A stretch of 64,000 nucleotides of DNA from Acidobacteriota bacterium (GTDB lineage Bacteria; Acidobacteriota; UBA6911; RPQK01; JAJDTT01), in assembly GCA_028874215.1 (NCBI GenBank), contig JAPPLF010000101.1, forward strand, positions 62,001-126,000, in the 5' to 3' direction. Position 1 is the stretch's first letter; the number at the start of each line of letters is the position of its first letter. Under the pieces are notes generated by a model. The model was not told where the DNA came from. It saw only the letters and a list, made by a program, of their open reading frames with translations, and searched no databases. A program made the translations under genes and the position numbers. This document shows positions 8,175-53,903 of this stretch, piece by piece.

Positions 8175-8294
8175 CCCGGACTTATTTGACAGAAAGAAGG
8201 TCTCCACCCCGCGCCGACCCCCGCAATGCTGGCCGAAAAAGGGAATTTGGGTACACAGACTTCCCGGCCAACGGTTTCGGATCGGAGATGAAGA

Positions 8295-8314
8295 GGGGGA
8301 CAAGACTGTCCCCC
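8295..8314. repeat. GGGGGACA/TGTCCCCC hairpin repeat
   Basis: GGGGGACAAGACTGTCCCCC forms a perfect 8-bp stem with loop AGAC. The identical 20-mer occurs at 30862-30881. It lies between the DUF1501 gene and the CRTAC1 gene. A second imperfect stem (GGGAA at about 8240 with TTCCC at about 8260) sits beside it, so this may be a two-hairpin unit. It could attenuate transcription within the minus-strand run. Confidence 0.65.
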
Positions 8315-8317
8315 CAC

Positions 8318-9607: not shown

Positions 9608-9621
9608 AGTGTGCGGTATCC

Positions 9622-28819: not shown

Positions 28820-28840
28820 GACCTGCCGCCAGAGGAAGCT

Positions 28841-34235: not shown

Positions 34236-36134
34236 TTATTCCTTTGAACCGGTCTTCCTGGACCGGTACGCCCTTTCCAGAAGACGTTGGATACTGGGGA
34301 ATCTGGCGGCGGCGGGCCGGGCTCGCTCAAGAGTCTCGATGGCCGGCTCGGTCTCTCCCAACTCCAGGTAGAGAGCGCCCAGCTTGCGCAGATGATTCGG
34401 GTTGTCGGGAGCTCGCTCGACAGCCTTGAGGAAAGCCTCTTTCGCCCCCGGCATGTCCTTCAACAGGTACCGGGCCGTTCCCAACAGTGAATAGGCAAGA
34501 TCGTTGTCCGGTTGCCTTCTGATGCTCCCTTCAGCGGAGGCGCGGGCTTGCTCATAGTCTCCCTTGCGGAGATGGATCTGGCCCCGCATGAGATCGACGC
34601 GCGCGTTTTTCGGTTCCCGGTCGGCCAGGAAGTCCAGGACCTGGAGAACCCGGTCGTGCTCTCCCATCTGAAAATAGGTGTCCCCCAGAATCCAGGCCTG
34701 GCGGGAGTTCAGTTGCGGCCATCGATCCCGGCCCAGAGACTCAAGGACCGGCCGGGCCAGTTCGTGCGCTCCCGATTGCGCCAATGCGTTCGAATAGTAG
34801 ATGGCGTACTTGGGATTGTTGCCATCCAATCGAACGGCCTCTTTGAACTCTGCGGCGGCGCCCGGCCAATCCTGCTCCTGCCAACGCCCCATCCCCTGAT
34901 GGAAGTAGGGCTCGGGATCGGACGGATCCGCCTGCTTCTGGCGCTCGAACAGCTCCGAGGCCTGCGCGATTTGTCCCATCTTGATCAGGTGCTGCCCGTC
35001 CCTGCTGGTCCGCAGCCGCTCGGCGGCGACCCGGTGGCGTTCGGCTTCCTCCTGCCGTCCCAACCGGAAGTACAGGCCGGCCAGAGTCACGTGGCCTTCC
35101 AGGAAATTGGGGTTTTCATCCACCACACTCTTCACGGTTCGGATCGCCTCTTCGATCCGGTTGGAGGAGCTGTAGACGAGTCCCATCTGAAACCGCGCAT
35201 CCGCATCGCCCGGCCGCGTCCGCAGCGCACGTTCGAAGCGGGCCAGGGCTTCCTCATATTGCTGTTCGTTCTCAAAGAGAAAGATGCCGCGGTACAGATT
35301 GGCGTCGTAATCGTCGGGATTGATCTTGAGTTCTTCCAGGAAGGCCTGGTTCGCTGTGTCGTGCCGGTTCATGAGCCGGAGCAACTTCCCGTACGTGGCG
35401 TTCAACGAAGGGACCCGCGGGTCGAGCGCGAGGGCTCTTTCCAAGTGCCTGGCCGCTCCCGGGTAGTCTCCGTTTTCCATCAACTTGCCGCCTCGGCGCG
35501 CCAAACGATTGAGCCAATCTGCGCGCATCTCGGACCGGAACCGCGATGTCGGCCAGTCCGTGTCTTTCAGGGCGTTCTCGACGAGCGGCGTTCCCTCTTC
35601 CGCCCGCCCGTCCTCTTCCAGGGCAACTCCCAACAGATAGGTCAGGGCTGGAGATTGGGACAATTCCATCTCAAGCGGCGACAGAAGTTCGATCATCTTC
35701 CGCCACTCGCCCAGGTTGAAGTGGCAGGAGGCCAGCAACTGAAGGGCTTCCCTGCCCTTCGATCCATCGGCGACGACCTGGACCAGGATCTGCTTGGCCC
35801 TCTCGAAGTCGGCCGTTCGATAATGGGTCCACCCGAGGGCGTATCTGGCGCCCGTCGGGTCAATGAGACCGCCGGATTCAATAGCCGATTCGTATTGGGC
35901 GACGGCATCCTGATACCGGCCGCTCGAAGCGTAGGCGTTGCCCAGCTTGACTCGGACCTCCGCCAGACCGGGGTTACGGGCCAGCAAGGACCGGTACACT
36001 TCGATGGCGCCTTGCAGATCACCGTCCTGTTGGAGTTGAACCGCCCGCCTCAGGGCCTTCTCCGGCTCGCCCTGCGCCAACAGCAGGAAACCCGCAAGTG
36101 CCGCGATTGCCGGGATATGGAGCATGGGGATCAC
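34236..36134 (-). CDS. Secreted TPR-repeat protein
   Basis: A 632-residue protein with a short signal peptide (MLHIPAIAALAGFLLLAQG) and TPR units over nearly its full length, for example YRSLLARNPGLAEVRVKLGNAYASSGR near the start and KAVERAPDNPNHLRKLGALYLELGE near the end. It has no enzyme domain. Its end is next to the CRTAC1 gene at 32510-34219, another instance of the CRTAC1/TPR pairing. Confidence 0.85.
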   Translation of the reverse strand: MIPMLHIPAIAALAGFLLLAQGEPEKALRRAVQLQQDGDLQGAIEVYRSLLARNPGLAEVRVKLGNAYASSGRYQDAVAQYESAIESGGLIDPTGARYALGWTHYRTADFERAKQILVQVVADGSKGREALQLLASCHFNLGEWRKMIELLSPLEMELSQSPALTYLLGVALEEDGRAEEGTPLVENALKDTDWPTSRFRSEMRADWLNRLARRGGKLMENGDYPGAARHLERALALDPRVPSLNATYGKLLRLMNRHDTANQAFLEELKINPDDYDANLYRGIFLFENEQQYEEALARFERALRTRPGDADARFQMGLVYSSSNRIEEAIRTVKSVVDENPNFLEGHVTLAGLYFRLGRQEEAERHRVAAERLRTSRDGQHLIKMGQIAQASELFERQKQADPSDPEPYFHQGMGRWQEQDWPGAAAEFKEAVRLDGNNPKYAIYYSNALAQSGAHELARPVLESLGRDRWPQLNSRQAWILGDTYFQMGEHDRVLQVLDFLADREPKNARVDLMRGQIHLRKGDYEQARASAEGSIRRQPDNDLAYSLLGTARYLLKDMPGAKEAFLKAVERAPDNPNHLRKLGALYLELGETEPAIETLERARPAAARFPSIQRLLERAYRSRKTGSKE

Positions 36135-38052: not shown

Positions 38053-41000
38053 TCAGAAATAGACCTTCAAGGCAGTTTGTATCACCCGGCCGAACAACGC
38101 GCTACTGACCCTTCCGAAGGCTGCACTCTGAATATTGGAGCTCGGTCCCCCGAAGTTCGGGTGGTTGAAGGCATTGAAGAACTCGAACCTGAGCTGCAAC
38201 CGCCCCTCTTCGGTGGGTAGCATCGGCAGGGCCCAGTTCTTGATCAGAGCCAGATCCTGGTTGATGATGCCGTCCCGATCGATGATATTCCGGCCGCTGT
38301 TCCCATATGTATTGATGGGATTCAAGGCAAAGGCGGCCGTATTGAACCATTGTTGGATGTCCTGGTTGCCCCTGGTGCCGTTGCGCAACCGGTTCGGCTG
38401 ACGCGCGTTGTACGTGCTTCCCGTGTTGGAGTTGTCGCTGGACATGCCGATCGTAATCGGCAGTCCGCTGTTCAGCGTCGTAATTCCACCAAACTGCCAA
38501 CCGCCCAGGAGATTCCGGATCAAGCCGGACTGTCCTTCCATTTTCGGAAGCAGGTAGTTCCAACTGAACGACAGACGATGTCCCATATCCCAATCGCTTC
38601 GAGCGTTGTTGGTGTCGGTGAGCCGATACGTCGTCACCGACCCAAAGGAATCCCAGTCGGTTGTCTTCGCATAGGTATAGCCCATAAGGAAGCTCAATTT
38701 GGTGCCGGTTTTTCTGAGGGTGACTTGAAGCGCATTGTAGTCGGACATCCCCGCACCGGCATCCTGGATATTGAAGCCGATATTGGGCCAGGGGCGCCGC
38801 TCCTGTTCGAAGGGGGGCGCGCCAAGCTGCGGAAGCGGCCGATTGAGTTCCTGCCTCTGGGACAGCTTCCTTCCCGTCGATCCGACATAGGCCGTCTCAA
38901 GCAGGACTTGGCCCGGAAGCATGTTCTGGATACTCAGGGTCCAGTTCTGCAGATAAGGGCTCCGTCTCTTGCTGGTAATCAGTGAGACGTACCCGATCGG
39001 ATCGCTCATATCCAGAATCTCGTTAAAGTTGTCCGGATCGAATACGGGAGGATCCTTGAACAGTGTGGCGATGTCGATGGGGTTCTTCGGGTCCCGGCTG
39101 ATGGCGTTGTTGATGAATGCATTCTGCGGACCGGAGCTGTCCCAGGCCAGATCGTTACCCGGTGTTTCATCATAGAAGACACCGTAGCTGCCCCGGAGCA
39201 CGAAATTCTGGTTGGCAGTGGGTGTCCAGGCGAACCCGATCCGGGGAGCAAAGTCATTGAAGTCGGTGTCGATGAGACTCCCGGGCCCTCCAAAGATCAC
39301 GCCTCCGCGCGGACGCGTGAAGTCCATGATGTCCAGATAGTTGCCCCCTTCAGGTCCCACCTCCAGAGCCAGCCAGGGGTGCACCTGGTAGCGCAAGGCC
39401 AGGGTCAGGCTGAAATTGGGCGTGACGCGGATGCGGTCCTCGAAATAGGCGTCCCACCACATGGAGACTCGATTCGCTCCGGCCGCCGCGGCGCCCGTGG
39501 AGTTCTCGGGATGTCCCAACAGGAAATCGGCAACGTCGTTCCCGGTAATGATTCCCGAAAATTGGAAGTTCCCCTGGGTCCATGAAGCAGCCAGTTGCTG
39601 TGTGAACCGGTCGATGATGGTCATGCCGAAGGTCATCTCGTGCCGGCCCTGGGTGTAGCTCATGTCGGCCATGTAGTAGAGGTCGTTGTTGACCGGGACG
39701 ATGCAGTTGCCGGCGCCGCCAAAACGCGTATAGCTGACCATGCCTGCAGCCGGGGCATAGTTGCAGGTCCGAGTCGTGTTGATGTTCCGGATGCCGTACC
39801 TCTCCGACCAGATCGGGTCCGTGTCCCGTTCCAGGTTTTGCGCCAGCGACATGATGGCGCGGTTCAATCCGGCCCGCGCATCCAGAACCAGGTTATTGGC
39901 GAATACGTGGGTCCAGTTGACGACGGCATTTCTTCCGTAGAGCGGATACTCGACATTCGCGCCTCTGTTGATTCTGCTGTCGAACAGTTGCGAGTCGGAG
40001 TGGATCACACGGGCAAAGACTTTATCGTTGTCTGTAGCCTGCCAATCTCCACGCCAGATCCATTTCGTGTCGTCCTGGATTCTCGGCGCCGCACCCGTGA
40101 AGTTGTTGGCGGTGCCCGGAAGATTGGGCGCCGGGATCAGTCCATCCTCCATGTACAACCGGGCCCAGGGGTGAATGCGATTGGACGGAATCTGGTTGTT
40201 GGGAAAAGGCTCACCCGTCATCGGGTCAATGACGGGAGTCGACAAGGAAGAAAAATCCCCCTGGAGAAATCTTGTCGGCGGTACGGTGAGGAACTGCGTG
40301 TTGAAACGGCTTGAGTTCAACCCCTCCAAGGAGACGTACCAGAACAACTTGTCCTTCAGTACCGGCCCCCCGACCTCGAATCCCCACTGGTGTTGCCGAA
40401 ACTCTCCGAGTTCCCGGTCAAAAAAGCTTCTGGCGTCCAGGTTGTCGTTGCGGTGAAAGAACCAGGCGCTTCCACTGATCGCGTTGGTTCCCTGTTTGGT
40501 GACGACGCTGACCACGCCCGGGGTCTGCCCGCGGCCCGTGAAAAAGCCCTTCTGGACCTTGAATTCCGAAATGGCGTCGACTTGAACGAGGGCCCCCGGA
40601 GCACCGTAGAAATGCTCCTTGAAAGGAATTCCGTCGAATACGTACGACGTAGAACTCACCCGCGTCCCGGATATGGCCGCGGAGGTCTGGCGAGGACCGT
40701 AAGCCCACTGCGCGACGCCGGGAGCCGAATCGCCGGCCTGCACGCCGGCCTGAATCCCGGCGAGCTGCAGGAACCCTCTTCCGTTCAGCGGCAGTTCCTC
40801 CACCATCTCCTCGCCGATCACGGTGCCCAGCTCGGCGGTTCTCCGGTCGACGACCGTCGCCTCGGCCGTGACCAACACCGTATCGCTGACTTCACCCACC
40901 TGAAGCGTCAAGGTGTGATCCACTACGGCGAACACCTCGAGTTGGATCCCTTCCACCACTGCCTTCTTGAAGCCGGGCATCTCTACACTGAGGGTGTAGG

Positions 41001-41235
41001 AGCCCACCGGCAAAGCGGCGAAACTGAAGACCCCCTGTTCGTTGGAGATGCCGGTTCTGCGGAGGCCCGTCGCCTCGTTGACGGCCTCAACGTCAGCCCC
41101 GGGAACCACCGCGGTGGTGTCGTCCAGCACTCGGCCGGTAATGGTCCCGGACCCTTCCGCCTGGGCCCTGAGACCGCCGGTCGACGCCAGGACGATGGCG
41201 ACCAACAGCACTAGGGCCAATGAATTACGTCGCAT
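38053..41235 (-). CDS. Oar-like TonB-dependent receptor
   Basis: The 1060-residue protein has a signal peptide (about 1-27), a carboxypeptidase-regulatory-like domain (about 30-105; GTITGRVLDDTTAVVPGADV and GVFSFAALPVGSYTLSVEMPG), a plug-like region and a large barrel ending in the aromatic LKVYF. This matches the Oar-type receptors of Acidobacteriota, thought to import large or complex substrates, often glycans. GGGAGG precedes the ATG by nine bases. A sigma70-type promoter lies at 41401-41430, and an IS remnant starts 15 bp beyond it. Confidence 0.9.
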   Translation of the reverse strand: MRRNSLALVLLVAIVLASTGGLRAQAEGSGTITGRVLDDTTAVVPGADVEAVNEATGLRRTGISNEQGVFSFAALPVGSYTLSVEMPGFKKAVVEGIQLEVFAVVDHTLTLQVGEVSDTVLVTAEATVVDRRTAELGTVIGEEMVEELPLNGRGFLQLAGIQAGVQAGDSAPGVAQWAYGPRQTSAAISGTRVSSTSYVFDGIPFKEHFYGAPGALVQVDAISEFKVQKGFFTGRGQTPGVVSVVTKQGTNAISGSAWFFHRNDNLDARSFFDRELGEFRQHQWGFEVGGPVLKDKLFWYVSLEGLNSSRFNTQFLTVPPTRFLQGDFSSLSTPVIDPMTGEPFPNNQIPSNRIHPWARLYMEDGLIPAPNLPGTANNFTGAAPRIQDDTKWIWRGDWQATDNDKVFARVIHSDSQLFDSRINRGANVEYPLYGRNAVVNWTHVFANNLVLDARAGLNRAIMSLAQNLERDTDPIWSERYGIRNINTTRTCNYAPAAGMVSYTRFGGAGNCIVPVNNDLYYMADMSYTQGRHEMTFGMTIIDRFTQQLAASWTQGNFQFSGIITGNDVADFLLGHPENSTGAAAAGANRVSMWWDAYFEDRIRVTPNFSLTLALRYQVHPWLALEVGPEGGNYLDIMDFTRPRGGVIFGGPGSLIDTDFNDFAPRIGFAWTPTANQNFVLRGSYGVFYDETPGNDLAWDSSGPQNAFINNAISRDPKNPIDIATLFKDPPVFDPDNFNEILDMSDPIGYVSLITSKRRSPYLQNWTLSIQNMLPGQVLLETAYVGSTGRKLSQRQELNRPLPQLGAPPFEQERRPWPNIGFNIQDAGAGMSDYNALQVTLRKTGTKLSFLMGYTYAKTTDWDSFGSVTTYRLTDTNNARSDWDMGHRLSFSWNYLLPKMEGQSGLIRNLLGGWQFGGITTLNSGLPITIGMSSDNSNTGSTYNARQPNRLRNGTRGNQDIQQWFNTAAFALNPINTYGNSGRNIIDRDGIINQDLALIKNWALPMLPTEEGRLQLRFEFFNAFNHPNFGGPSSNIQSAAFGRVSSALFGRVIQTALKVYF

Positions 41236-41400
41236 TTCTTTTCCTCCCGATCAGTGGGAAATAGTGAGGCTGAGGGAAACCGCCCGACGTGAATGCGCAG
41301 TTTTCGTCTTGCAGTAGAAGAGCCGACTGGACTGATCGAATCGAACGGATCAGCGTATACGCGGTCGGACATACTTGGTCCCGTAGCCTGGGATGGCGAA

Positions 41401-41430
41401 AGTTTAAGGTATGCCGTCCAGCCATGTCAA
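41401..41430 (-). promoter_or_regulatory. Promoter of the TonB receptor gene
   Basis: Reading on the minus strand, TTGACA (41430-41425) and TAAACT (41406-41401) are spaced 18 bp. The intervening and flanking sequence closely matches a second site at 51149-51178, which has TTGACA and TAGAAT with the same spacing. The predicted leader is about 160 nt and contains a segment (TCAGCCTCACTATT) also conserved in the second copy. Confidence 0.7.
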
Positions 41431-41445
41431 CAGTCCGAGTTCGGG

Positions 41446-42015
41446 GGGGTGCACGACAAAAAAGTGACGACGGATCAAGCTGCAGCCTTGGAATTGGCTC
41501 TCCATTCCCAAGGGTCCTCAAAGCGCCCACTGAGCCGAACACAGCGCAGGGCCATGATCGAATTCGCTCCTGGCACGCTCCAATGCATTCCGGATCGCTT
41601 GAGCCGAGCCCCGATGGCATTCTTGCATCCGGCTTCCACTACTCCGGTGGACGTGCAGAGCCCTTGCGCCTCGAATCGGGCGTAACGCATGCGATGTCGA
41701 TTCTGCTGGAAACAGGTGCAGGCCGCTTTCGCTTCCTCGTTGTGAGCGGCCTCGGTGGCAAGCTCAGATAAGAGGGTCTCGATCCGACCGGCATCGAGTT
41801 CCAGGCAACGTTGTTGCGCCCAATCCTGGGCCAACTGGCGATCAGCGAATAAGTTCCTGGAGAGGGTATGAAGTCGCTCTTTGGCGTGGAAACGATCGAT
41901 AATCTGCACCGCCTCCGGGAAGAGTTCCCCGGTCAGGTTCCAAATCCACTTCGCTCCGTCTCCCAGAACATCTTGCCGTTGCGCTTGCCCCAAACGGCGG
42001 CGTTGAGCCTCAGGC
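41446..42015 (-). mobile_element. ISKra4-type element remnant, copy 1 (5' truncated)
   Basis: The right end GGGGTGCACGACAAAAAAGTGA (41446-41467; shown in part here as GGGGTGCACGAC then GTGA) matches the terminal inverted repeat of the copy at 51194-52336. The 3' half of the transposase is nearly identical to that copy. The left end is missing; the element stops near 42015 next to the end of a CRTAC1 gene. The exact left boundary cannot be fixed. Confidence 0.75.
41475..42015 (-). pseudogene. ISKra4-family transposase, C-terminal fragment
   Basis: The frame reads RQDVLGDGAKWIWNLTGELF, IIDRFHAKERLHTLSRNLF and GVVEAGCKNAIGARLKRSGM, then ends WEWRANSKAAA. These match the catalytic C-terminal half of ISKra4-type DDE transposases. 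The N-terminal half and the DUF6788-like leader protein are absent, so it is not functional. It retains about 20 residues (SEPEAQRRRLGQAQRQDVLG) that are deleted in copy 2. Confidence 0.8.
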
Positions 42016-42026
42016 TCCGAATCCCA

Positions 42027-43667
42027 TCAGCCGGGCTCGTCACAAGCCGGTTCTACAACTTCGTGATAGCGATTGAGTTTAAGGTCCTTGAGCACCGATG
42101 TCTTTCCGCTGGGCCAACGAATCTCAACCCTGAGCGCCGCTTCCCCGTCGGGCACGCCAAAGAGAATGCGCGGGTCATTTTGTGAGCAATAGCTGGAGGA
42201 ACTCCGTACCTCTCTCATCTGCTGAGGACCACCCTTTTTTGAAGACAGAAAGACACGCGTCCCCAGGGCGTCGCCATTGCTGCATGTTCCCTGGAGTCTC
42301 AGGCCCAGCCAGTGATTCCCCAGTTGGTCTCGACGGTAGACCAGCGGTTGATCATCCAGATTGGAGACGACGATCTCGAGACTTCCGTCATTGTCGAGAT
42401 CGACAAATGCCGCCCCGCGTCCAACGGCGGCGGTTGGTGAGGGGAATGCCTGATTCGAAACATCGCGAAACCGGCTGTTCCCAATATTCAAGAACCACTG
42501 ATCCGGCATCGAATAGGGTGGCACGTTGGGGTAGAGATGACCATTCGCGACAAAGAGGTCCACGCGACCATCACGGTTGAAGTCGATGAAACCTGTGCCG
42601 AATCCCAAATAGCTCATAGTGGGTTGAGCTAATCCGGTCTCGCGGGTGCTGTCGATAAAAAAGCCGTTCCCCAGATTGCGATAGAGGGTGTTGTACTCTT
42701 CCGAAAAATTCGTCACATACAGATCCATCCAGCCATCGTTGTCATAATCCCCGGCGTCGACCCCCATCCCCGCTTGCTCTTTTCCGTTGGCATCCACGGC
42801 TACGCCAGCCTGCAGCGCCACATCTTTGAACTGACCCCGGCCGTTATTCTGAAAAAGATTGTTGGGAACCGAATCATTGGCGACATAAACGTCGAGATCG
42901 CCGTCGTTGTCATAGTCGGTGCAGACCACTCCAAGTCCATAGTAGCTGCGGTCGGCAATACCACTCGTTCTACTGACATCCGAAAAGACTCCGTTGCCCA
43001 GGTTTCTGTAAAGGACATCGCGGGAGGCCGGATAGCGCTTCGGCCCGCAATAGGCCGGTCGTCCTTTGAAACGGCAGAATCGGCCGGATGTGGGGGGGGC
43101 AGAGAAGTCGAAGTCCACGTAGTTGGTCACATAGAGGTCGACCCAGCCGTCCCCATCGAGGTCCGCAAAAGCTGCACTGGCACTCCAGGCACTACTGCCC
43201 GTGCCCGAAGCCTGCGTGAAGTCGGTAAAAGTACCATCGCCGTTGTTGCGGTAAAGCCGATTGGGACCGAAGTTTGTGACGTAAAGGTCCGTGTCGCCGT
43301 CGTTGTCGATGTCAGCCGCTGTCCCGCCCATCCCCCAACCCAAATCTGCCACTCCTGCCTCCTTAGCTACCTCTTCGAAGTGTCCGTTGCCTTTATTGCG
43401 AAAGAGAAGGTTAGGAGTCTTCTTTCCGTCTCTCTGGGCTCCATTGACCAAGTAGACATCAATGTAACCGTCGTTGTTATAGTCAAGACAAAGGACCCCT
43501 CCACTCATCGAATCAACGATCAGAGGTTTGTCGGCGTCGCCAGTGATATTTTTTCCCAGGAATCCGAGTTCGCTTGAGACTTCTCTGTATTGATTCGGCT
43601 TGGAGAGAACGGCCATCGGCAGCCACAGAAGCAGGATCACGCCGAGGCTCTTCAGTTTCATCATCAC
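42027..43667 (-). CDS. CRTAC1-family FG-GAP/ASPIC-UnbV protein
   Basis: The 546-residue protein has a signal peptide (MMMKLKSLGVILLLWLPMAV) and repeats such as [83 protein letters not shown] and FVDLDNDGSLEIVV. The C-terminal ASPIC/UnbV domain has NGDALGTRV and WPSG. It is downstream of the GWxTD gene (136 bp gap) in the envelope cluster. The IS remnant abuts its 3' end but does not appear to truncate the domain. Confidence 0.9.
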   Translation of the reverse strand: MMMKLKSLGVILLLWLPMAVLSKPNQYREVSSELGFLGKNITGDADKPLIVDSMSGGVLCLDYNNDGYIDVYLVNGAQRDGKKTPNLLFRNKGNGHFEEVAKEAGVADLGWGMGGTAADIDNDGDTDLYVTNFGPNRLYRNNGDGTFTDFTQASGTGSSAWSASAAFADLDGDGWVDLYVTNYVDFDFSAPPTSGRFCRFKGRPAYCGPKRYPASRDVLYRNLGNGVFSDVSRTSGIADRSYYGLGVVCTDYDNDGDLDVYVANDSVPNNLFQNNGRGQFKDVALQAGVAVDANGKEQAGMGVDAGDYDNDGWMDLYVTNFSEEYNTLYRNLGNGFFIDSTRETGLAQPTMSYLGFGTGFIDFNRDGRVDLFVANGHLYPNVPPYSMPDQWFLNIGNSRFRDVSNQAFPSPTAAVGRGAAFVDLDNDGSLEIVVSNLDDQPLVYRRDQLGNHWLGLRLQGTCSNGDALGTRVFLSSKKGGPQQMREVRSSSSYCSQNDPRILFGVPDGEAALRVEIRWPSGKTSVLKDLKLNRYHEVVEPACDEPG

Positions 43668-43803
43668 TGCCTATTCGCCAATCTCATAGGTGTTCCGCTC
43701 AAAGACCGTGAGGCCCGCCAATAAGCAAGTTTGCTCCCTGCTGTAGGTAAGAGAAAGAATTAGTGGGGTGGCGAAAAGCGGCCCGAAAGCTTTCGGATCT
43801 TGC

Positions 43804-45453
43804 TCAAGACTCGTCTGGCGGGACCTGGAAGCGGGTCCTTTGCAACACCTTCTTCTGCAGGATCCGATCCTCCACTTTCAACTCAAGGTCGTACTTGCCT
43901 GCCCCGAAGCCCTTCAAGCCGAAGACAAAAGCGACAGCTATCCGGTCCCCCAGGACTTCGAAGAGTGCCTGGTCCGCCTGGTTGACCAGCACTTTTCCAT
44001 GGCTGTCTTTGACTTCTGCCAGGATGTCCAGATCTGGGTACGAGCTGGCACCATCGATTGCGAAGTTATACACCTCGAAATACATGCCGAGGGATTCTCC
44101 TGAGCGGAAGTGGTTGTTGCTGACCGGGTAGACTTTCCATCCCAGCGCCGTCACAAAAGGATCCGGCAAGCTGCCCTCTTTGGCCGGAGTGATGAGATCG
44201 GAAAGGACAACCGACGAAAGCGAGAGTTCGTCGCTCATCTTGACAGGAAGATTCAACTTCTTTTCCAGGTAACCCATCTCGCCACTGCTGACGTCCTCGA
44301 CTACGAGACTTAGTTTGTACAGACCAGGCGACAGCGGGATGATCTTCTGGTAGCGCTTGTAGGGGTAGATATAGGCGTCCGAGGGATCCAGTCCCGCGCG
44401 CCGGTCATCGTAAACAGTCTCCTCGAACTCCTGAATGACCCTGCCGGCTGCACTTCTCACGGCACCGTAGAGATTCACGGTGGCGCGCTCCGTTTCCTCT
44501 CCCAGCGATTGGTAAGTCAATTCCGAGACCGGAAGATAGACCGTGATCGGAGCCAGAAACGAAGAATCATTCAACCGCAAGTGCGAGTTGTTGGCTGAAA
44601 CGGGAAACCGTGTGTAGCGGACCCGCGTGTCTACTTGCGCCTTCAAATCAGTGAACTTGATCTCGGGAGGCTTTTGCAGCTGGAAATACCTCTCCAGACG
44701 AAGAAAGGGATTCGCTCCTGCTTTGTGGTAGACGTCGTCGTCCCCGCCGAAGCTTCGCATCAGCTCCGAGCCCCTGATCCGAGAGGCTCTCGTCTCGAAG
44801 CCCATCTTCTCGAACAGGGTCTTCCCACCCCCGGGCATACGCAGGAGGGCATCCTTCTCCTCGGGCCGCAACGCGATCCGGAAGTCGCCTGTCATGGAAC
44901 GATCCACGAATTCGATCTCAATGCCGTTGCCTATCCCCTCAATGTAGTTGTAGAACCACTTTTCCATGGGGTAGACCTGGGTCGCGCCTCCACCCTCCTC
45001 GATCTCCCGATAGTAGGTTGCTCCTGCACCGTATTTGTCGACTGATTCAGGCGGGCCGAAAGTAATGTAGATGCGACCCCGGTCAGTCTGCCATCCGAAC
45101 ACACCCGCATTACTGTAACGCTCATTTGCATAGGCTATACGCCTGTAGTGCTCGACCTTGAACTCGTTGAAGTCCGTGGACGGATCGGGGTCGCGCCGGC
45201 GCCAGAACTGCTCGATAAAAATCTCCTTCTCCTCGTCAGCGGTGAGTTTCTCGAAGACCGATCTTTCCTCGGGAGTCACGATGTAGAAGACGTCTTCATC
45301 GAGCCAATCGGAATAGGGATCTACACTCTCCTCCTTCTGGCGCTGTTCGTCCCGTTGAGTTCCGGGGAGAATGAAGGCGGGCGTGAGAAGGAGTAGAACC
45401 GTGACTGCAACGAGCAGCAGACGCTCTTTGGAATGTCCGGTCTTGCGCAGCAT
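43804..45453 (-). CDS. GWxTD-domain secreted protein
   Basis: The 549-residue paralogue of the protein at 17646 has a signal segment (LLLVAVTVLLLLTPAF), the QFWRRRDPD motif, and GWQTD at 120-124 followed by DRGRIYITFGPPE. The C-terminal half is beta-rich, ending in a Ca-independent Ig-like pattern (FGAGKYDLELKVEDR). Here it lies between a CRTAC1 gene and a divergent TPR gene. Function is unknown; an envelope role is inferred from the signal peptide. Confidence 0.88.
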   Translation of the reverse strand: MLRKTGHSKERLLLVAVTVLLLLTPAFILPGTQRDEQRQKEESVDPYSDWLDEDVFYIVTPEERSVFEKLTADEEKEIFIEQFWRRRDPDPSTDFNEFKVEHYRRIAYANERYSNAGVFGWQTDRGRIYITFGPPESVDKYGAGATYYREIEEGGGATQVYPMEKWFYNYIEGIGNGIEIEFVDRSMTGDFRIALRPEEKDALLRMPGGGKTLFEKMGFETRASRIRGSELMRSFGGDDDVYHKAGANPFLRLERYFQLQKPPEIKFTDLKAQVDTRVRYTRFPVSANNSHLRLNDSSFLAPITVYLPVSELTYQSLGEETERATVNLYGAVRSAAGRVIQEFEETVYDDRRAGLDPSDAYIYPYKRYQKIIPLSPGLYKLSLVVEDVSSGEMGYLEKKLNLPVKMSDELSLSSVVLSDLITPAKEGSLPDPFVTALGWKVYPVSNNHFRSGESLGMYFEVYNFAIDGASSYPDLDILAEVKDSHGKVLVNQADQALFEVLGDRIAVAFVFGLKGFGAGKYDLELKVEDRILQKKVLQRTRFQVPPDES

Positions 45454-45550
45454 GCGTCTTTAGCAAGCTAGTATGCGACGTGGGTGGTTCGTCTTCAAGC
45501 ACCTTTGACTGGTTTGACTGGCAACAGCCGGTGGGGGAGCAAACTCTTTC

Positions 45551-45598
45551 GGCGCCCGAGGCGCCTCCTACATTCGCTCCGGAGGATGGTGCCTCCGG
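45551..45598. repeat. Two adjacent GC-rich hairpins between divergent genes
   Basis: GGCGCC-CGA-GGCGCC (45551-45565) and CCGGAGG-ATGGTG-CCTCCGG (45579-45598) lie side by side in the gap between the GWxTD gene and the TPR gene. They resemble a repeat unit in layout but their sequences do not match the other repeat families in this window. Confidence 0.5.
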
Positions 45599-45645
45599 TT
45601 CGCACAATTGCACGCAGCACCTGTTTCAAGGTATGTAATTAGCCT

Positions 45646-47412
45646 GTGAATTGGACAGGCAAGCTTGCCGTGCTACTCGTCACAACCCTCGCGATCTTTG
45701 CCCCGGGACTGTCGCAGGAGCATTTAGAGACTCGCCAGAAGGCCCTGGAACTTCTCAACCAGAACAAATCGGCCGAGGCCGAGAAACTCTTTCGAGAATA
45801 CCTTGATTCTTACCCGGACGACGCTCAAGCCCTTTACTACCTGGGCGTCAGCTTGCACTTTCAGTCTCAATACAAAGCAGCGATCGAGGTCTTGGAACGG
45901 GTTGTGGCGCTTCGTCCCCAGGTGGACAATCCTCAGTTCGAACCTTCGCGGCTGCAATACTTCCTGAGCCTGCTCCACTTCCAGAATGGGGATTTGGACT
46001 CGGCGCAAAGCAAGCTCGAACCACTCGTCAAAGAAGGCGCCGCCGCACCCGTTTACTTCCTGCAAGGCCGGATGGATTTCGCCAGGAAGGACTACGAATC
46101 CGCCGAGCGGCACATCTCCAGCGCCTTGCAATTGGACCTCCCGGATTCTGCGGAGGTTCACTACCAACTTGGATTAATCTATTCCGCCCAAGGAAAACAT
46201 GATGAAGCCGCGCGCTCTATAGAGGCAGCTCTGGAGCAACAACCCTCAAATCCAGATATTCTTTTCAAGCTGGCCGATACTTATTTTCAACTGCAAGACA
46301 TTCCCCGTGTTGAGGAGTTGTCCCGCGAAGTTCTGGCTGAGGATCCGTCCTCGGCCATGGCGCACTACAACCTGGGCCGTGCGGAGTTTGCACGTGGCAA
46401 TCTGGAGAAAGCTGGCGAGTATTTCGTCCGAGCGACTGAACTGGAGACGCGTCCCCGGTACTTCAATTCTCTGGCCCAGGTGCGGATACAGCTGAACCAG
46501 CCGCAGCGGGCCATCGCTGCACTCAGAGAGAATGTACGCCTGGATCCGGCGACGCCCTCTCCACGGCTTCAACTAGCGGGACTCCTTTTTCAGGCTCTCG
46601 ACATGAACGGGGCCGAGGTGGAATACAAAAAGATCCTCAACATGAACCCCGACAATATGCACGCACTGTTCGGATTGTGCTTTACCCTCGTCGCTCGGGG
46701 GAACGAAACGGCGGCCGTCGAGACGTTTCGCAAAGCCTGGGGGACCGATCCCGGTCTACTGAAGGAGATGATCGTCTCAGCAGTCATATCAGCCCGGGAA
46801 CATCCCGGATACACTCAGATCGCCGGTAGGCTGCTGCGGGCTGTGGCCCCTGCGGCAGCGGAGCACAGCCTCGAATTCATTGTGGCGCGTCAGTACCTGT
46901 CCGCCAATCGAGCCGGGAAAGCGCTGGAATGGATCGACCGCTATCTCTCAAACGGAGCCCCCGACGATCACACCCGTTTGCTCATGGGCTCGGCATTGCG
47001 GATGCTGGGCAGAACGCAGGAAGCTGAGAAAGAGTTGCTGGCTATCAATCAGGCCTCACCGTTGGGGGTGCACGCCCTCTATCAGCTAGCGGTTCTTGAA
47101 GCCCTCTACGAGGAAAACCAGAAGGGCGGGAAAGCCGACGAGTATCTGGATCGTGTGCTGGCGCTGGACTCAGATCATTTTCAGGCTCTCGTGATGAAAG
47201 CCGAACGCCAGATCAAGGATGTCAATCTGGCCGAGGCCGAAAGGCTGCTCAAACATGCTGTCGGCATCCAGCCGGATAGTCCTGAAGCGCACTACGCCTT
47301 GTCCACGCTCTATCGGCGGTCCGGGCGGAATCAGGAGGCTGAAGCAGCACTCAACCAGTACAAGCGGCTCAAGGCGGAGTCTGCCCTGTTTCCGGAACTG
47401 CAGTATCCGTAG
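45646..47412 (+). CDS. Secreted TPR-repeat protein
   Basis: A GTG start gives 588 residues with a signal peptide (LAVLLVTTLAIFAPGLSQ) and TPR repeats throughout (LFREYLDSYPDDAQALYYLGVSL, DPSSAMAHYNLGRAEFARG and others). It is divergent from the GWxTD gene and converges with a TonB receptor gene. The ribosome-binding site is weak, so the exact start is less certain. It probably scaffolds an envelope complex. Confidence 0.85.
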   Translation: MNWTGKLAVLLVTTLAIFAPGLSQEHLETRQKALELLNQNKSAEAEKLFREYLDSYPDDAQALYYLGVSLHFQSQYKAAIEVLERVVALRPQVDNPQFEPSRLQYFLSLLHFQNGDLDSAQSKLEPLVKEGAAAPVYFLQGRMDFARKDYESAERHISSALQLDLPDSAEVHYQLGLIYSAQGKHDEAARSIEAALEQQPSNPDILFKLADTYFQLQDIPRVEELSREVLAEDPSSAMAHYNLGRAEFARGNLEKAGEYFVRATELETRPRYFNSLAQVRIQLNQPQRAIAALRENVRLDPATPSPRLQLAGLLFQALDMNGAEVEYKKILNMNPDNMHALFGLCFTLVARGNETAAVETFRKAWGTDPGLLKEMIVSAVISAREHPGYTQIAGRLLRAVAPAAAEHSLEFIVARQYLSANRAGKALEWIDRYLSNGAPDDHTRLLMGSALRMLGRTQEAEKELLAINQASPLGVHALYQLAVLEALYEENQKGGKADEYLDRVLALDSDHFQALVMKAERQIKDVNLAEAERLLKHAVGIQPDSPEAHYALSTLYRRSGRNQEAEAALNQYKRLKAESALFPELQYP

Positions 47413-47533
47413 CTTGGATCGGGAACGGTTCAACCGCGCAGGCCAGAATGCTTTGCGCCCCTACAGAGCGCTAAAAGCCAAGCTCGCCCGGTGAAGTTCG
47501 AGACTGTAATCATCGGAGGAGAGCAAAGAAGGG

Positions 47534-47563
47534 ACGGACACCGAAGGCACCTTCGGTGTCCGT
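47534..47563. terminator. Strong hairpin between convergent TPR and TonB genes
   Basis: ACGGACACCGAAGG (47534-47547) and CCTTCGGTGTCCGT (47550-47563) are perfectly complementary over 14 bp with a two-base loop, so the real loop probably opens to four to six bases. There is no T tract on either side. Its place between two converging genes suggests transcript termination or 3'-end protection. Confidence 0.6.
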
Positions 47564-47585
47564 GCTCCAGCTTCTCAACGGGGTA

Positions 47586-50500
47586 CTAGAAGATGAGCTT
47601 CAATCCGAATTGGATCCTTCGTGCATCGGTAGCTGTCGTGATCCGCCCGTAGGATCCAGACTCCAAATTGGCGCTTGGTCTTCCAAAGTTGACGTTATTG
47701 AAGATGTTGAAAAACTCTGTCCGGAACTGTACTTTTGCTTCTTCCGAGATTCCTGGGATATTGAAATTCTTGAATAGCCCTAAGTCCTGACCGACAAAAC
47801 CATCGCTGTACAGGAATTGAGCACCCGAGTTACCAAAGGTGCCAGGGGCCGGCAATGAAAAGGCGCCGAGATCAAACCATCGATCCGGTGATCGCTGACC
47901 GGCCGGCAGGTTGCCGTCTCCCAAGCGATTGGGACGCTTGTTGAAGATGGCCTCACTGTTGGCTGGATCCGAGCTTGTAGTTGGGTGGAAGTTGAAACCG
48001 CTCATGAGCGTCGTGATGCCCGACAGCTGCCAACCTCCCAATGCGTGTCTCATGGCTGCGCTTTGGCCTTCAAAAAGAGGCAACTCGTATACGAAGCTGA
48101 AGTTAAAACGGTGCCGCAAATCGAAAGTACTCAAGCCTTTGTCCCGATCCCAGGGCACATAGTTACGGGCTCCCTTACTGTCAAACGAATCAGTATCCAA
48201 CGATTTCGCCCAGGAGTAAGTGGTCAGAAAACTCAATCCCTGACTCAAAGCTTTTCGTAGCGTGAATTCCAGGCCGTGATACCAGGACTGTCCCATGGCA
48301 TGATCCGTGAGAATGAATTGAAAATCAGGCCAAGCACGATTCGCCTGACGGCAGGCCGAATCGCAGGACGGGTCGTTTGCCGTTCGCCCCCCTTCACGCC
48401 AACGTGCGATGGACCGATTGATATTCCACCGCTTCGACATGCTCACACCATGAGAGCCCACATAAGCCATCTCACCAAACAAGCCCCAGGGAAGCATACG
48501 TTGGACGCTCAGGGTCCATATCTGCTGATAGGGATCCGACCGCCTCTGAGGAGTACTCAAGAGTATGAGGGATATGTCTTTTATATCAAACGGATCACCC
48601 GGGGGCGGATCCGGAAAAAGTGTTGAGATTTCGATCGTCGGCTTGTCGGTGTCGCTGAAGAAGGTCTGGACAATACTATTGTTGGGCGAAAGGATAGCGT
48701 CCCACGCCAGTTCGTTTCCGGGCACCTCGTCGTAGAAGATTCCAAAACTGGAACGGATGGCAAAATCCTGAGAACCCCCTGGGCTCCACGCAATTCCAAT
48801 CCGGGGAGCAAAGTTGTTCTTATCGACGTCAATCACGCGTCCGACATCCCTCTCGGCGCGAAAGCCTCCGGCGCCTCCGTTCGCGGCTCCGTCAAATAGG
48901 CCGAGCCGGTCCCCGGTTGTGGAGACCAGCCAGGGGTAGAGCTGATAGCGCAGACCGAGGGTCAGGCTAACGTTGCGGCTGATTTTGAACTCATCCTGGA
49001 TGAAGCTGTTGAACCAGATTCCTTCTTTGTCGACTGCGGGACCGGTCTTGTGACCGATAACTCGATTCGTATGCCCCAGGAGAAAGTCTGCTACCGGATG
49101 CCCGGTGAACTGACCCAAATACTGAAAGTTACCCTGCTGGTTGAAAGTGCCGATCAGCGTGTGACCCTTATCGCGCACCTCGAATCCCCAGGACACGTTA
49201 TGGCGCCCCTTTATCCATGACATGTTGAAGATGTAGTGCCAGTCATTCTGGAAAGGGGCTATGCAGCTGCCTGGCCCACCAAACGTCGAAAAGCCACCCA
49301 TTGACACTCCTGGCACCGCATTGCACTCAGGAACAATGTTAATGTTCCGTATTCCAAATTCCGTCGGCCAGTCGGGATCCGTCAGGGCGTTTGTTGGACT
49401 CCAGTAGCTGATTTCCACCTTATTCAGACCTGCTTTCGCATTGGCTACCAGTGTGGGTCCAAACGAATGAACCCAATCAAAAACCAGATTATGGGCAGTT
49501 AACGGACGCGCCGTTTCTGACCCGGGCAACAAACTTCGATCGTTGACGATACTGTCAATCCCGGACCATCTTCCGAAGAATCTATCCGTCTCCGAGAGTG
49601 CAAAATCCACTCGCGTGATGAATTTGTCATCATTTCTCACGAGACCCGTCTCGCCAATGAGATTGAAGACGTCACCGGGCGGCTGATTGGGCGCCGGTAT
49701 GAAACCGAGACCTATGTATTGGTTGGCAAATGGATGAAACCTGCTCGACGGGATGATATTCCCTGGGAAGGGCTCTCCCGTGGTTGGATCGATCAGGGGC
49801 TCTGCCAAATCCGAGAAATCTCCCTGTAGATGCCGAGACGTGGGGACGATGTTGCGACCGGTCGCGGCCTTTCGTGAGCGAAAACCTTCGTAGCTAAAAA
49901 ACCAGAACAGTTTATCTTGAATCACCGGACCGCCCACCTCAGCTCCGAACTGGTTCTGGAGGAACTCCGGATTGCCGACTGAAAAAAAGTTTCGCGCGTC
50001 CAGATTGTCGTTGCGATGAAACATCCAGCCGGAACCGTGAATTGCGTTGGTTCCCGACTTGGTGATTGCGTTGACGACCGCTGGATTATCGTTTTGACCT
50101 GAGAAGAAACCCCGCTGGACTTTCACTTCAGCCAAAGCATCGAGAGCCGGAAGTTGAGCGGAAGATCCGTAGAAGGGCTCTTTACTCGGGATCCCATCGA
50201 ACATGTAATTGGTCGAGGTCTCCCGCTGACCTGAAATCGTCACGGTGGTCACCCCGCGGCCTATGCGAAAACCATGGGATTCGCCTGCGTTACCGGACTC
50301 TGTAAAGGGGGAACCGTGGGCCCCCGCAGTTAAGCGAGTCAGGCCGACAAAACTTCTCTGATTGATGGGAAGCTCTTTGATCTCCCGTTCCTGCAGTACT
50401 TCACCGATCGCCGGTGTTTCCGTTTCGACACGAGTCACCGCAGCCTGGACGGTCACTTGTTCCGTAACCTCGCCCACTGCCAACGTCACCTGGCGACGGA

Positions 50501-50819
50501 CGTGCGAATCCACCCGAATCTCGATCTGGGTCAGTAGGGCCGTCTTGAAGCCGGGCATTTCGGCTCTGAGGTCATAGACACCTGGTCTCAAATACGGAAG
50601 TCCGAAAACACCCGTATCATCGGTGATCGCTTCACGTTCTTCACCGGTGTCCACATTGGTTACAGTCACTGTGGCCCCTGGAATCACCGCCTCGACCTCA
50701 TCGACGACGGTGCCCGTTATCGTCCCCGTCGTAGCCTGCGATAGAAGTAAAGGAGTGCCTGCTAAGATTAAAATAATTAATAGAGAAGTTGCTTTGAGAT
50801 GTTGTTTGCCAAGTAGCAT
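47586..50819 (-). CDS. Oar-like TonB-dependent receptor
   Basis: The 1077-residue protein starts after GGGGAGG and has a signal peptide (LLIILILAGTPLLLSQ), a carboxypeptidase-regulatory-like domain (GTITGTVVDEVEAVIPGATV to LRAEMPGFKTALL), a plug and a long barrel ending FGLKLIF. It is a paralogue of the receptor at 38053, though clearly diverged. Its upstream region holds a relic of a much closer paralogue of that receptor plus a strong promoter, which may now drive this gene with a long leader. Confidence 0.9.
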   Translation of the reverse strand: MLLGKQHLKATSLLIILILAGTPLLLSQATTGTITGTVVDEVEAVIPGATVTVTNVDTGEEREAITDDTGVFGLPYLRPGVYDLRAEMPGFKTALLTQIEIRVDSHVRRQVTLAVGEVTEQVTVQAAVTRVETETPAIGEVLQEREIKELPINQRSFVGLTRLTAGAHGSPFTESGNAGESHGFRIGRGVTTVTISGQRETSTNYMFDGIPSKEPFYGSSAQLPALDALAEVKVQRGFFSGQNDNPAVVNAITKSGTNAIHGSGWMFHRNDNLDARNFFSVGNPEFLQNQFGAEVGGPVIQDKLFWFFSYEGFRSRKAATGRNIVPTSRHLQGDFSDLAEPLIDPTTGEPFPGNIIPSSRFHPFANQYIGLGFIPAPNQPPGDVFNLIGETGLVRNDDKFITRVDFALSETDRFFGRWSGIDSIVNDRSLLPGSETARPLTAHNLVFDWVHSFGPTLVANAKAGLNKVEISYWSPTNALTDPDWPTEFGIRNINIVPECNAVPGVSMGGFSTFGGPGSCIAPFQNDWHYIFNMSWIKGRHNVSWGFEVRDKGHTLIGTFNQQGNFQYLGQFTGHPVADFLLGHTNRVIGHKTGPAVDKEGIWFNSFIQDEFKISRNVSLTLGLRYQLYPWLVSTTGDRLGLFDGAANGGAGGFRAERDVGRVIDVDKNNFAPRIGIAWSPGGSQDFAIRSSFGIFYDEVPGNELAWDAILSPNNSIVQTFFSDTDKPTIEISTLFPDPPPGDPFDIKDISLILLSTPQRRSDPYQQIWTLSVQRMLPWGLFGEMAYVGSHGVSMSKRWNINRSIARWREGGRTANDPSCDSACRQANRAWPDFQFILTDHAMGQSWYHGLEFTLRKALSQGLSFLTTYSWAKSLDTDSFDSKGARNYVPWDRDKGLSTFDLRHRFNFSFVYELPLFEGQSAAMRHALGGWQLSGITTLMSGFNFHPTTSSDPANSEAIFNKRPNRLGDGNLPAGQRSPDRWFDLGAFSLPAPGTFGNSGAQFLYSDGFVGQDLGLFKNFNIPGISEEAKVQFRTEFFNIFNNVNFGRPSANLESGSYGRITTATDARRIQFGLKLIF

Positions 50820-50926
50820 ACGGTGCCTCCCCTTGACGAAAATCTAGCCCACACAAAGAATCAAAAGGCTAAGGTGACGTTACAGCGTATCAACAGTGGC
50901 TGCCAATAACGATTCCACTCGATCCA

Positions 50927-50998
50927 CTCGAAACTGAAAACCCCCTGGTCGTTGGAAATGCCGGTTCTTCGGAGGCCCGTCGCCTCGTTGACGGCCTC
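50927..50998 (-). pseudogene. TonB receptor relic (carboxypeptidase-regulatory fragment)
   Basis: On the minus strand, 24 codons read EAVNEATGLRRTGISNDQG and then VFSFE, identical to the receptor at 38053-41235 except for one conservative change. The relic is joined directly to leader sequence also shared with that gene (around 51001-51030), so the start codon, signal peptide and first strands are deleted, and the rest of the gene is gone. The intergenic stretch 50820-51193 holds this relic, the promoter at 51149 and no other gene. Confidence 0.75.
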
Positions 50999-51148
50999 TC
51001 GGCGGGGAATAGTGAGGCTGAAGGAAGAATCCCGGCGCAACTCCGCCGTGCTCCTTTTGCTGAAGCGGACTGAATTGGACTGGACGAATAGCAGAGATCT
51101 GCGTATTCAGCATTGAGCATTCGACATCCGCGAACCTGGGATTGCAGA

Positions 51149-51178
51149 ATTCTACGGGATGCCGTCCGCCGATGTCAA
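51149..51178 (-). promoter_or_regulatory. Second copy of the TonB receptor promoter
   Basis: On the minus strand TTGACA (51178-51173) and TAGAAT (51154-51149) are spaced 18 bp, close to sigma70 consensus. GGACGGCAT in the spacer is shared with the promoter at 41401-41430. It points toward the relic and the intact receptor gene at 47586-50819, about 330 bp away. Confidence 0.7.
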
Positions 51179-51193
51179 CAATCCGCGTGCACC

Positions 51194-52336
51194 GGGGTGC
51201 CCGACACGAGAGTGATGCTGATGATGAAAGCCAGAGAACGTCAGCGATTGGGCTTAGACTCTCTGTCAGTTACTATAACTGTCAGGTAGGAGTGTGCCCC
51301 TGTCCCCAGACCGTTCCCCTCAGCGCCAGCTCCAACATCGACGCCAGCGGTTGTTGCAGGCCGTGCTCGAAATCGGCGACCTCCGTCCCGGGTCTCTCGC
51401 GACGCGTTACCGCCGTTGCGGCAAGCCCAACTGTCACTGTGCCCAGCCCGGCGACCGAGGCCACGGACCCAGTTTCTCCTTGACCCGTCGCGTCGGCGGC
51501 AAAACCGTGACCAAGATCATTCCCCCGGGGCCGGCGGTTGAACGCACCCGGGCGCAGATCGCCGAGTATCGTCGATTGCGGAGCTTGGTGAAGGAGTTGG
51601 TGGAGGTCAGCGAGCAGATTTGTCAGGTTCAGCTGGACGCTTCTTCGGCCCGGACGGGCCAAAAAAAGAGCTCCAAAAAACGCTGGCGCAGGAGATCCGG
51701 CAAGAAGTCCGGACCCTGATGGGTCCCCTGGCGGCCGAAGCCTTGGACTTCGAAGCTCTGGAGACCGCCCTCCGGCGCCAAGTCTTGGAGTGGGCGGCCC
51801 GCACGGTGGAAGCGCAGCTCAACCAGGATCATGTGGATTTGGAACCTGACCGGGGAACTCTTCCCGGAGGCGGTGCAGATTATCGATCGTTTCCACGCCA
51901 AAGAGCGACTTCATACCCTCTCCAGGAACTTATTCGCTGATCGCCAGTTGGCCCAGGATTGGGCGCAACAACGTTGCCTGGAACTCGATGCCGGTCGGAT
52001 CGAGACCCTCTTATCTGAGCTTGCCACCGAGGCCGCTCACAACGAGGAAGCGAAAGCGGCCTGCACCTGTTTCCAGCAGAATCGACATCGCATGCGTTAC
52101 GCCCGATTCGAGGCGCAAGGGCTCTGCACGTCCACCGGAGTAGTGGAAGCCGGATGCAAGAATGCCATCGGGGCTCGGCTCAAGCGATCCGGAATGCATT
52201 GGAGCGTGCCAGGAGCGAATTCGATCATGGCCCTGCGCTGTGTTCGGCTCAGTGGGCGCATTGAGGACTTTTGGGAATGGAGAGCCAATTCCAAGGCTGC
52301 AGCTTGATCCGTCGTCACCTTCTTGTCGTGCACCCC
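51194..52336 (+). mobile_element. ISKra4-type insertion sequence with internal deletion, copy 2
   Basis: Terminal inverted repeats are visible: left 51194-51215 (GGGGTGCCCGACACGAGAG, then TGA) and right 52315-52336 (complement GGGGTGCACGACAAGAAGG, then TGA). The 7-mer GTGCACC directly flanks both ends (51187-51193 and 52337-52343), consistent with a target-site duplication. The element is 1143 bp, shorter than a full member, because the middle of the transposase gene is deleted near 51832. Confidence 0.8.
51294..52307 (+). pseudogene. Frameshifting DUF6788 protein/ISKra4 transposase gene, inactivated
   Basis: The first frame (51294-51719, 141 residues) has a zinc-finger-like DUF6788 region, RYRRCGKPNCHCAQPGD. 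It contains the slippery heptamer A AAA AAG at 51662-51668 in the correct phase for a -1 shift, after which the second frame reads KELQKTLAQEIRQEVR and LDFEALETALRRQVLEWAARTVEAQL. A deletion near 51832 then throws the reading off; the catalytic half resumes in another frame (MWIWNLTGELFPEAVQ to 52307). The gene cannot make a complete transposase. Confidence 0.75.
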
Positions 52337-53780: not shown

Positions 53781-53903
53781 CCAAGGGTCACCCCTTGGGC
53801 CTCTTTCCCAAACCAGGGTTAAGACTCAAGAGAAGCGACCGCAATGAGAGTAGTATCAAATCCAGATGGACCGATACCCGACAAGGCCAATGGAGGAGAA
53901 CCC

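Follow-up and report, generated by a model that had tools for sequence, protein, structure and literature searches.

The analyzed window comprises 64,000 nt of contig JAPPLF010000101.1 (assembly GCA_028874215.1, positions 62,001-126,000); all coordinates below are within this window. It includes a five-gene stretch composed of an Oar-type TonB-dependent receptor (receptor 1, 38053-41235, minus strand), a CRTAC1/UnbV protein (42027-43667, minus), an exported GWxTD protein (43804-45453, minus), an exported TPR protein (45646-47412, plus), and a second Oar-type receptor (receptor 2, 47586-50819, minus). Pfam and NCBIfam matches confirmed these identities, which an earlier note had proposed along with export signals for every gene, and hydrophobic, signal-peptide-like N-termini were indeed read from the sequence of all five proteins, including receptor 2, for which the automatic signal scan had placed the start too late. 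Elsewhere, the window encodes a second GWxTD protein (17646-19247, minus) with no receptor or UnbV gene within 8 kb, a probable selenoprotein (26729-30790), and, near the five-gene stretch, a BNR sialidase-like gene (53844-55517, Pfam).

Both receptors combine an N-terminal CarboxypepD_reg extension (PF13620; 68.7 and 70.8 bits for receptors 1 and 2, respectively) with an OMP_b-brl_4 barrel (628.6 and 674.1 bits, cut-off 30), and receptor 1 also matched PF00593. The Pfam Plug model PF07715 did not score on either of the two. A profile built from nine receptors matched TonB-dependent receptors in the PDB (5fr8, E 2.2e-11), with profile positions 133-323 aligning to the N-terminal part of 5fr8, and a TonB-box-like stretch, SDTVLVTA, was identified by eye in receptor 1. 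A sigma-54 promoter pattern preceded only a minority of receptors, neither of those in the window among them, and showed no excess before GWxTD, UnbV, or TPR genes.

The UnbV protein at 42027-43667 carries a signal peptide, six FG-GAP_3 repeats, and an UnbV_ASPIC domain (Pfam), and matched the structure of human CRTAC1 (9etn, E 2.2e-29). The window as a whole is dense in this family, with six UnbV domains where ~0.5 would be expected from the 46 found in the 5.7 Mb genome. CRTAC1 genes also recur beside TPR genes at 2894/4581, where the TPR protein at 2894 bears a PpiC-type rotamase domain as well; at 32510/34236, a pair adjoining receptor 1 (CRTAC1 at 32510-34219, plus; TPR at 34236-36134, minus; Pfam); and at 60750/62728 (CRTAC1 at 60750-62561, minus; TPR from 62728 to past the window end, plus), a pair whose ortholog adjoins the module in another genome. 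Both the density and the repeated pairing had been pointed out in the earlier note, and multi-copy UnbV and TonB-receptor paralogs were previously noted in Solibacter (PMC3174227).

The GWxTD protein scored 110.8 bits against TIGR04514 (cut-off 28), its motif reading GWQTDRG. Its predicted structure consists of a conserved GWxTD domain (~residues 32-262) followed, in the C-terminal half, by two Ig/FnIII-like sandwich domains resembling the biofilm scaffold RbmA. Comparison of the GWxTD domain model (pLDDT 84.5, pTM 0.79) with solved structures yielded no convincing match (best Foldseek E 0.31, best VIA Z 2.7), and this predicted domain may represent a new fold. Its invariant residues include the stretches FIEQFW, DRG.IYI, and EFVD. 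We know of no assigned function for GWxTD domain proteins, and a search of the open literature found no paper containing the word GWxTD.

The UnbV, GWxTD, TPR, and receptor 2 genes form a block (42005-50922) that is 98% identical to a sister species against a background of 84-94%. This near-identity extends to third codon positions (97.6-98.7% vs. 72-87%), indicating that the four genes moved together recently. Receptor 1 lies outside this cassette, its copies being 89-90% identical in sister genomes G001 and G002 and 96% in G003. Two near-identical, inverted remnants of an ISKra4-family transposase (NCBIfam) flank the four-gene part, at 41446-41993 (minus; repeated over 41446-41949) and 51833-52336 (plus, with IS-associated sequence from ~51300). 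Between the cassette and the second of these lies what is left of a receptor-1-like gene, its 5′ end together with sequence upstream of it (50929-51200, minus), recognized from a 94% direct repeat of 41019-41088 and from upstream similarity. A composite transposon formed by the ISKra4 remnants was ruled out by the arrangement in G001, where receptor 1 directly adjoins UnbV with no remnant in between, and which marks the remnants as recent and incidental.

Across the genome, GWxTD genes were located near UnbV genes and near these receptors 3-6 times as often as expected. Within 10 kb, 11 of 18 GWxTD genes had an UnbV gene (2.7 expected) and 8 of 18 an Oar-type receptor (2.5 expected), while 21 of 46 UnbV genes had a receptor (6.3 expected). 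This pattern recurred in other families of the order, in which GWxTD regions (309 kb) included 14 receptors, 17 TPR, and 8 UnbV genes vs. 0, 5, and 2 in control regions (292 kb). In-genome control regions had been picked away from UnbV and receptor matches, and their zero receptor count was set aside. Association of these genes by chance is excluded, and the module proposed in the earlier note does recur at neighborhood frequencies above expectation. It is not a fixed operon, since gene order and strand differ among copies; for ten of the 18 GWxTD genes in this genome, the surrounding 10 kb lack an Oar-type receptor. Co-evolution of GWxTD with the neighboring receptor was weak once near-duplicates were removed (Mantel r 0.16, p 0.02), and an apparent signal with UnbV or TPR vanished when near-identical copies were removed, indicating that module partners reassort. 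GWxTD genes number 13-24 per genome in the genus.

In other Acidobacteriota, 59 of 79 GWxTD loci have a CarboxypepD_reg/probable beta-barrel gene directly downstream on the same strand. This barrel of 600 aa, recognized by no Pfam barrel model and apparently plugless, was single-copy and beside GWxTD in all eight genomes tested, each of which harbors 55-120 other CarboxypepD_reg matches; in some genomes it adjoins a PDZ-bearing sensor kinase and a sigma-54 regulator. The genome of the window retains one barrel of the Bryobacterales kind, with no GWxTD gene next to it. Outside the order, UnbV and TPR genes are mostly not beside GWxTD and are thus not core parts. Phylum-wide, the best-conserved association joins GWxTD to an outer-membrane barrel, rather than CRTAC1 to a receptor.

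Taken together, these results lead us to favor, at a likelihood approaching but short of even, the view that the five genes represent a single copy of a recurring acidobacterial envelope module, in which an outer-membrane CarboxypepD_reg barrel and a dedicated GWxTD partner have been expanded, in this lineage, into horizontally exchanged receptor modules. At the center of this module would be a barrel with an N-terminal CarboxypepD_reg domain (here the Oar-type TonB-dependent receptors) in contact with an exported, non-lipidated GWxTD protein, which would present two adhesive domains of Ig-like type along with its conserved alpha/beta domain. The Ca-type beta-propeller of CRTAC1/UnbV may recognize cargo, the TPR protein may scaffold it or hand it over in the periplasm, and TonB energy would drive the cargo, most likely inward. 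Multiplication of the module within the lineage and its passage as a cassette between species would be expected if the systems differ in ligand. More doubtful, albeit plausible, is the broader proposal that GWxTD and CarboxypepD_reg-bearing outer-membrane barrels constitute an undescribed two-part outer-membrane machine of Acidobacteriota, present as one copy with the 600-aa barrel in many genomes and, in the order of the window, as numerous versions that are exchanged horizontally and work with TonB receptors, CRTAC1, and TPR proteins.

We regard a role in protein export as rather unlikely, albeit deserving of attention. Oar-type receptors would then bring CRTAC1 and perhaps GWxTD, their neighbors, to the cell surface, and GWxTD or TPR proteins would escort them through the periplasm. 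Myxococcus Oar is required for secretion of the protease PopC, and a role in TonB-dependent secretion is proven for Oar-subclass receptors extended at the N-terminus by PF13620 (PMC6434023); PopC secretion nonetheless persisted after PF13620 deletion, so that sharing this domain proves little. The CRTAC1 and GWxTD proteins have signal peptides without a lipobox (the pattern was detected in 0 of 18 GWxTD, 0 of 21 UnbV, and 0 of 30 TPR proteins) and would thus have to reach the surface by some other route, and no significant hydrolase enrichment points to nutrient uptake, yet UnbV does not track the receptor across the phylum. The earlier note had instead suggested a SusCD-like surface capture, and its outline of a recurring envelope set, in which exported GWxTD, TPR, and CRTAC1 proteins accompany a receptor of the outer membrane, was borne out. 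The parts that define SusCD were not: the scanned genes included no SusD beside a receptor, the single match in the genome (PF07980) being on another contig, and no lipoprotein partner. A SusCD- or PUL-like system importing glycans or peptides caught by CRTAC1 and cut by nearby enzymes hence appears improbable, despite the CarboxypepD_reg domain of the TonB receptor, the BNR sialidase-like gene close by, and the BNR_2 (9) and laminin-G-like (5) genes among 116 GWxTD neighbors, neither of which was in the top 25 of 117 controls. Against the hydrolase logic, BNR and sulfatase families showed, genome-wide, no significant excess near GWxTD, UnbV, or receptors (BNR near GWxTD: 5 of 18 vs. 2.7 expected). 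The earlier note also stated that VCBS/UnbV proteins of Bacteroidota are often neighbors of SusCD-type receptors; our open-literature search found no paper with both UnbV and SusD.

The lack of significant co-location of these sulfatase and BNR families also argues against the absence of any shared function, i.e., paralogous secreted families simply accumulating in the same variable islands. The variable gene order, reassorting partners, and ISKra4 remnants are compatible with such accumulation, but exchange of the four-gene block as one unit and the one-to-one GWxTD-barrel pairing in other acidobacterial genomes already disfavor it, and we give it little credence. Least probable of all would be eukaryote-like surface proteins (CRTAC1, TPR, and Ig-like) that are anchored by the receptors and mediate contact with a host animal: sponge-associated Poribacteria are rich in TPR, VCBS, and UnbV domains (PMC3909097), and the GWxTD Ig domains are similar to RbmA, but soil and groundwater Acidobacteriota have the same proteins.

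An envelope module centered on GWxTD and a barrel would matter in part because TonB receptors with CarboxypepD_reg are greatly expanded in Acidobacteriota, as reflected in the match counts of the eight genomes above. The one-to-one pairing of GWxTD with an outer-membrane barrel offers a concrete experimental handle in the form of a small operon, and GWxTD and UnbV, two domain families lacking an assigned function, gain a testable context.

Compared to known systems, the module resembles SusC/SusD of Bacteroidota in its TonB receptor with a carboxypeptidase-like N-terminal domain and its many paralogous loci, but differs in having no SusD-family or lipidated partner and no significant hydrolase enrichment. 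Myxococcus xanthus Oar likewise has a PF13620 N-terminal domain before a TonB-receptor barrel, whereas the receptors of the window are left unscored by the Plug model and are accompanied by GWxTD, CRTAC1, and TPR proteins, companions that the excerpted text of PMC6434023 does not mention for Oar. The GWxTD protein shares with other members of its family (TIGR04514, PF20094) the signature motif, at a score far over the cut-off. Finally, the FG-GAP propeller and UnbV_ASPIC domain are those of CRTAC1/ASPIC-UnbV proteins, although the copies described here are bacterial and lie within receptor modules.

The stretch at 38053-50819 is bounded by two Oar-type TonB receptors (receptor 1, 38053-41235, minus strand; receptor 2, 47586-50819, minus), each with a CarboxypepD_reg domain and an OMP_b-brl_4 barrel, and encodes between them CRTAC1/UnbV (42027-43667, minus), GWxTD (43804-45453, minus) and TPR (45646-47412, plus) proteins. 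Domain searches and sequence reading agree on this gene content, as an earlier note had listed it, and a profile built from nine such receptors matched TonB-dependent receptors of known structure. A BNR-repeat neuraminidase-like gene with a BNR_assoc_N domain (53844-55517, plus) adjoins the module. Elsewhere in the window (6288-14669, minus), a UnbV gene lies beside DUF1501 and PSCyt2/PSD1 (DUF1549/DUF1553) genes, families typical of Planctomycetes.

Across the genome of origin, a 5.7 Mb draft in 113 contigs that its nearest relatives mark as acidobacterial, with 46 UnbV domains, 18 GWxTD and ~42 OMP_b-brl_4 receptors, these families co-locate more often than uniform placement predicts (distance limit, 10 kb), bearing out the recurrence proposed from the window. 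UnbV was found near 11 of the 18 GWxTD genes (2.7 expected), a receptor near 8 of the 18 (2.5 expected), and a receptor near 21 of the 46 UnbV (6.3 expected). Sulfatases and BNR proteins, also large families, showed no significant excess near GWxTD, UnbV or receptors, so the clustering does not reflect a general tendency of genes to gather in islands. In other families of the order, 309 kb around GWxTD genes (genomes G006, G008, G009, G011 and G014) contained 14 receptors, 17 TPR and 8 UnbV, against 0, 5 and 2 in 292 kb of control regions from G008 and G009 picked irrespective of content. Gene order and strand differ among module copies, and several GWxTD genes of this genome have no receptor or UnbV nearby, which makes the module a loosely associated set and not an operon of fixed layout. 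With near-duplicates removed, co-evolution of GWxTD was weak with the receptor (r 0.16, p 0.02) and absent with UnbV and TPR, which argues for exchangeable parts.

Scanning GTDB genomes with the 18 GWxTD proteins yielded 80 loci, nearly all in Acidobacteriota. Of these, 79 had sufficient sequence, and in 59 of them GWxTD is immediately followed, in the same orientation, by a gene for a ~600-aa CarboxypepD_reg protein; its probable C-terminal barrel ends in phenylalanine and is covered by no Pfam barrel model. In eight genomes searched whole, each with 55-120 CarboxypepD_reg matches, this protein has a single full-length copy, always beside a GWxTD gene. Eleven loci have a PDZ-bearing PAS histidine kinase, usually accompanied by a sigma-54 response regulator, immediately next to the pair or to GWxTD on its own. 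The genome of origin has a CarboxypepD_reg barrel, a HisKA_7TM/PAS sensor kinase (weak PDZ match) and a sigma-54 response regulator on contig C68 (L169:7436-13661) without GWxTD; the same trio flanks GWxTD in some Bryobacterales. Sigma-54 promoter-like sites (0-1 mismatches) precede 3 of its 32 Oar-type receptor genes (L200, L210 and L225; 0.07 expected by shuffling), and a second test likewise showed a receptor excess. Across the phylum, genomes mostly have 0-2 GWxTD copies; outside the order the number reaches 10 at most, and this genus has 13-24. Parsimony suggests that the GWxTD-barrel pair is old and that, in this order, GWxTD may have been multiplied and brought together by recombination with Oar-type receptors, UnbV and TPR. 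At one further locus of the genome of origin, an AAA-ATPase_like/PDDEXK_9 gene (L012:12068-13615) immediately follows GWxTD.

The GWxTD protein is exported, and none of the 18 copies has a lipobox. Its N-terminal domain, with ~30 invariant residues among 39 sequences, is predicted by AlphaFold to be helical/beta (pLDDT 84.5, pTM 0.79 when modelled alone), and nothing in the PDB resembled it convincingly (at best, E 0.31 with Foldseek and Z 2.7 with VIA, the latter at rmsd 3.3 over 46 residues). Two predicted Ig/FnIII-like sandwiches follow. Their many structural matches include RbmA, GH2 enzymes and the Wzt carbohydrate-binding domain (8dky Z 9.8, rmsd 2.9, 105 residues); such folds are common and not indicative of function.

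Part of the stretch moved recently. Block 42005-50922 is 98% identical to its counterpart in a sister species (L019/L022, apparently from genome G002). Third codon positions are equally similar (97.6-98.7%, vs 72-87% for genes elsewhere in the window), and the block's GC3 (0.60-0.70) is below that of its surroundings (0.75-0.83); UnbV, GWxTD, TPR and receptor 2 were therefore exchanged as one group. Draft-assembly error might produce such identity, but the block is present in independent assemblies. Receptor 1, outside the cassette, is 89-90% identical in sister genomes G001 and G002. Two near-identical inverted ISKra4-family remnants (41446-41993 and 51300-52336, 9.9 kb apart), multi-copy in G002, surround the block; as creators of the module they are ruled out by G001, which lacks them in the interval from receptor 1 to UnbV.

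A separate feature is a probable selenoprotein at 26729-30790 (minus), where an FG-GAP gene (28841-30790) and a UnbV-redoxin-TPR gene (26729-28819) form a single FG-GAP/UnbV/redoxin/TPR frame interrupted by one TGA (28841-28843; NEDTKDL-U-SFLWRQVV). The TGA and downstream SF[LF]WR[QH]VV are conserved in two near relatives (L022, L023) and in a 39% identical homolog from another family (L154), all four copies having a predicted hairpin shortly 3' of the TGA, a pattern typical of bacterial selenocysteine codons. The window copy has the loop AGGUC, which also occurs in the SECIS of E. coli fdhF. Its hairpin is not more stable than shuffled sequence, Rfam has no match at the site, NCBIfam has no model at cut-off for the protein, and no cysteine homolog was seen among the loci compared.

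The abundance of the module's families in Acidobacteria has been reported (PMC3174227); in the open-access literature searched, neither the module nor the GWxTD-barrel pair was found described. We propose that GWxTD would be a dedicated partner of an outer-membrane barrel bearing CarboxypepD_reg, which in expanded modules would be an Oar-type TonB transporter, with CRTAC1 recognizing cargo and TPR acting in the periplasm. We lean slightly towards import of that cargo, for the sole reason that TonB receptors normally import; export has to be taken seriously too, since PopC secretion requires Myxococcus Oar, which belongs to the same subclass (PMC6434023). The SusCD-like capture role suggested in the earlier note fits less well: SusCD systems are defined by a lipoprotein, whereas no such partner was found here, and the hydrolases expected of them are not significantly enriched near modules, judging by sulfatase and BNR counts. 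We class the module among Oar-type TonB receptor loci, with an apparently undescribed set of partners.
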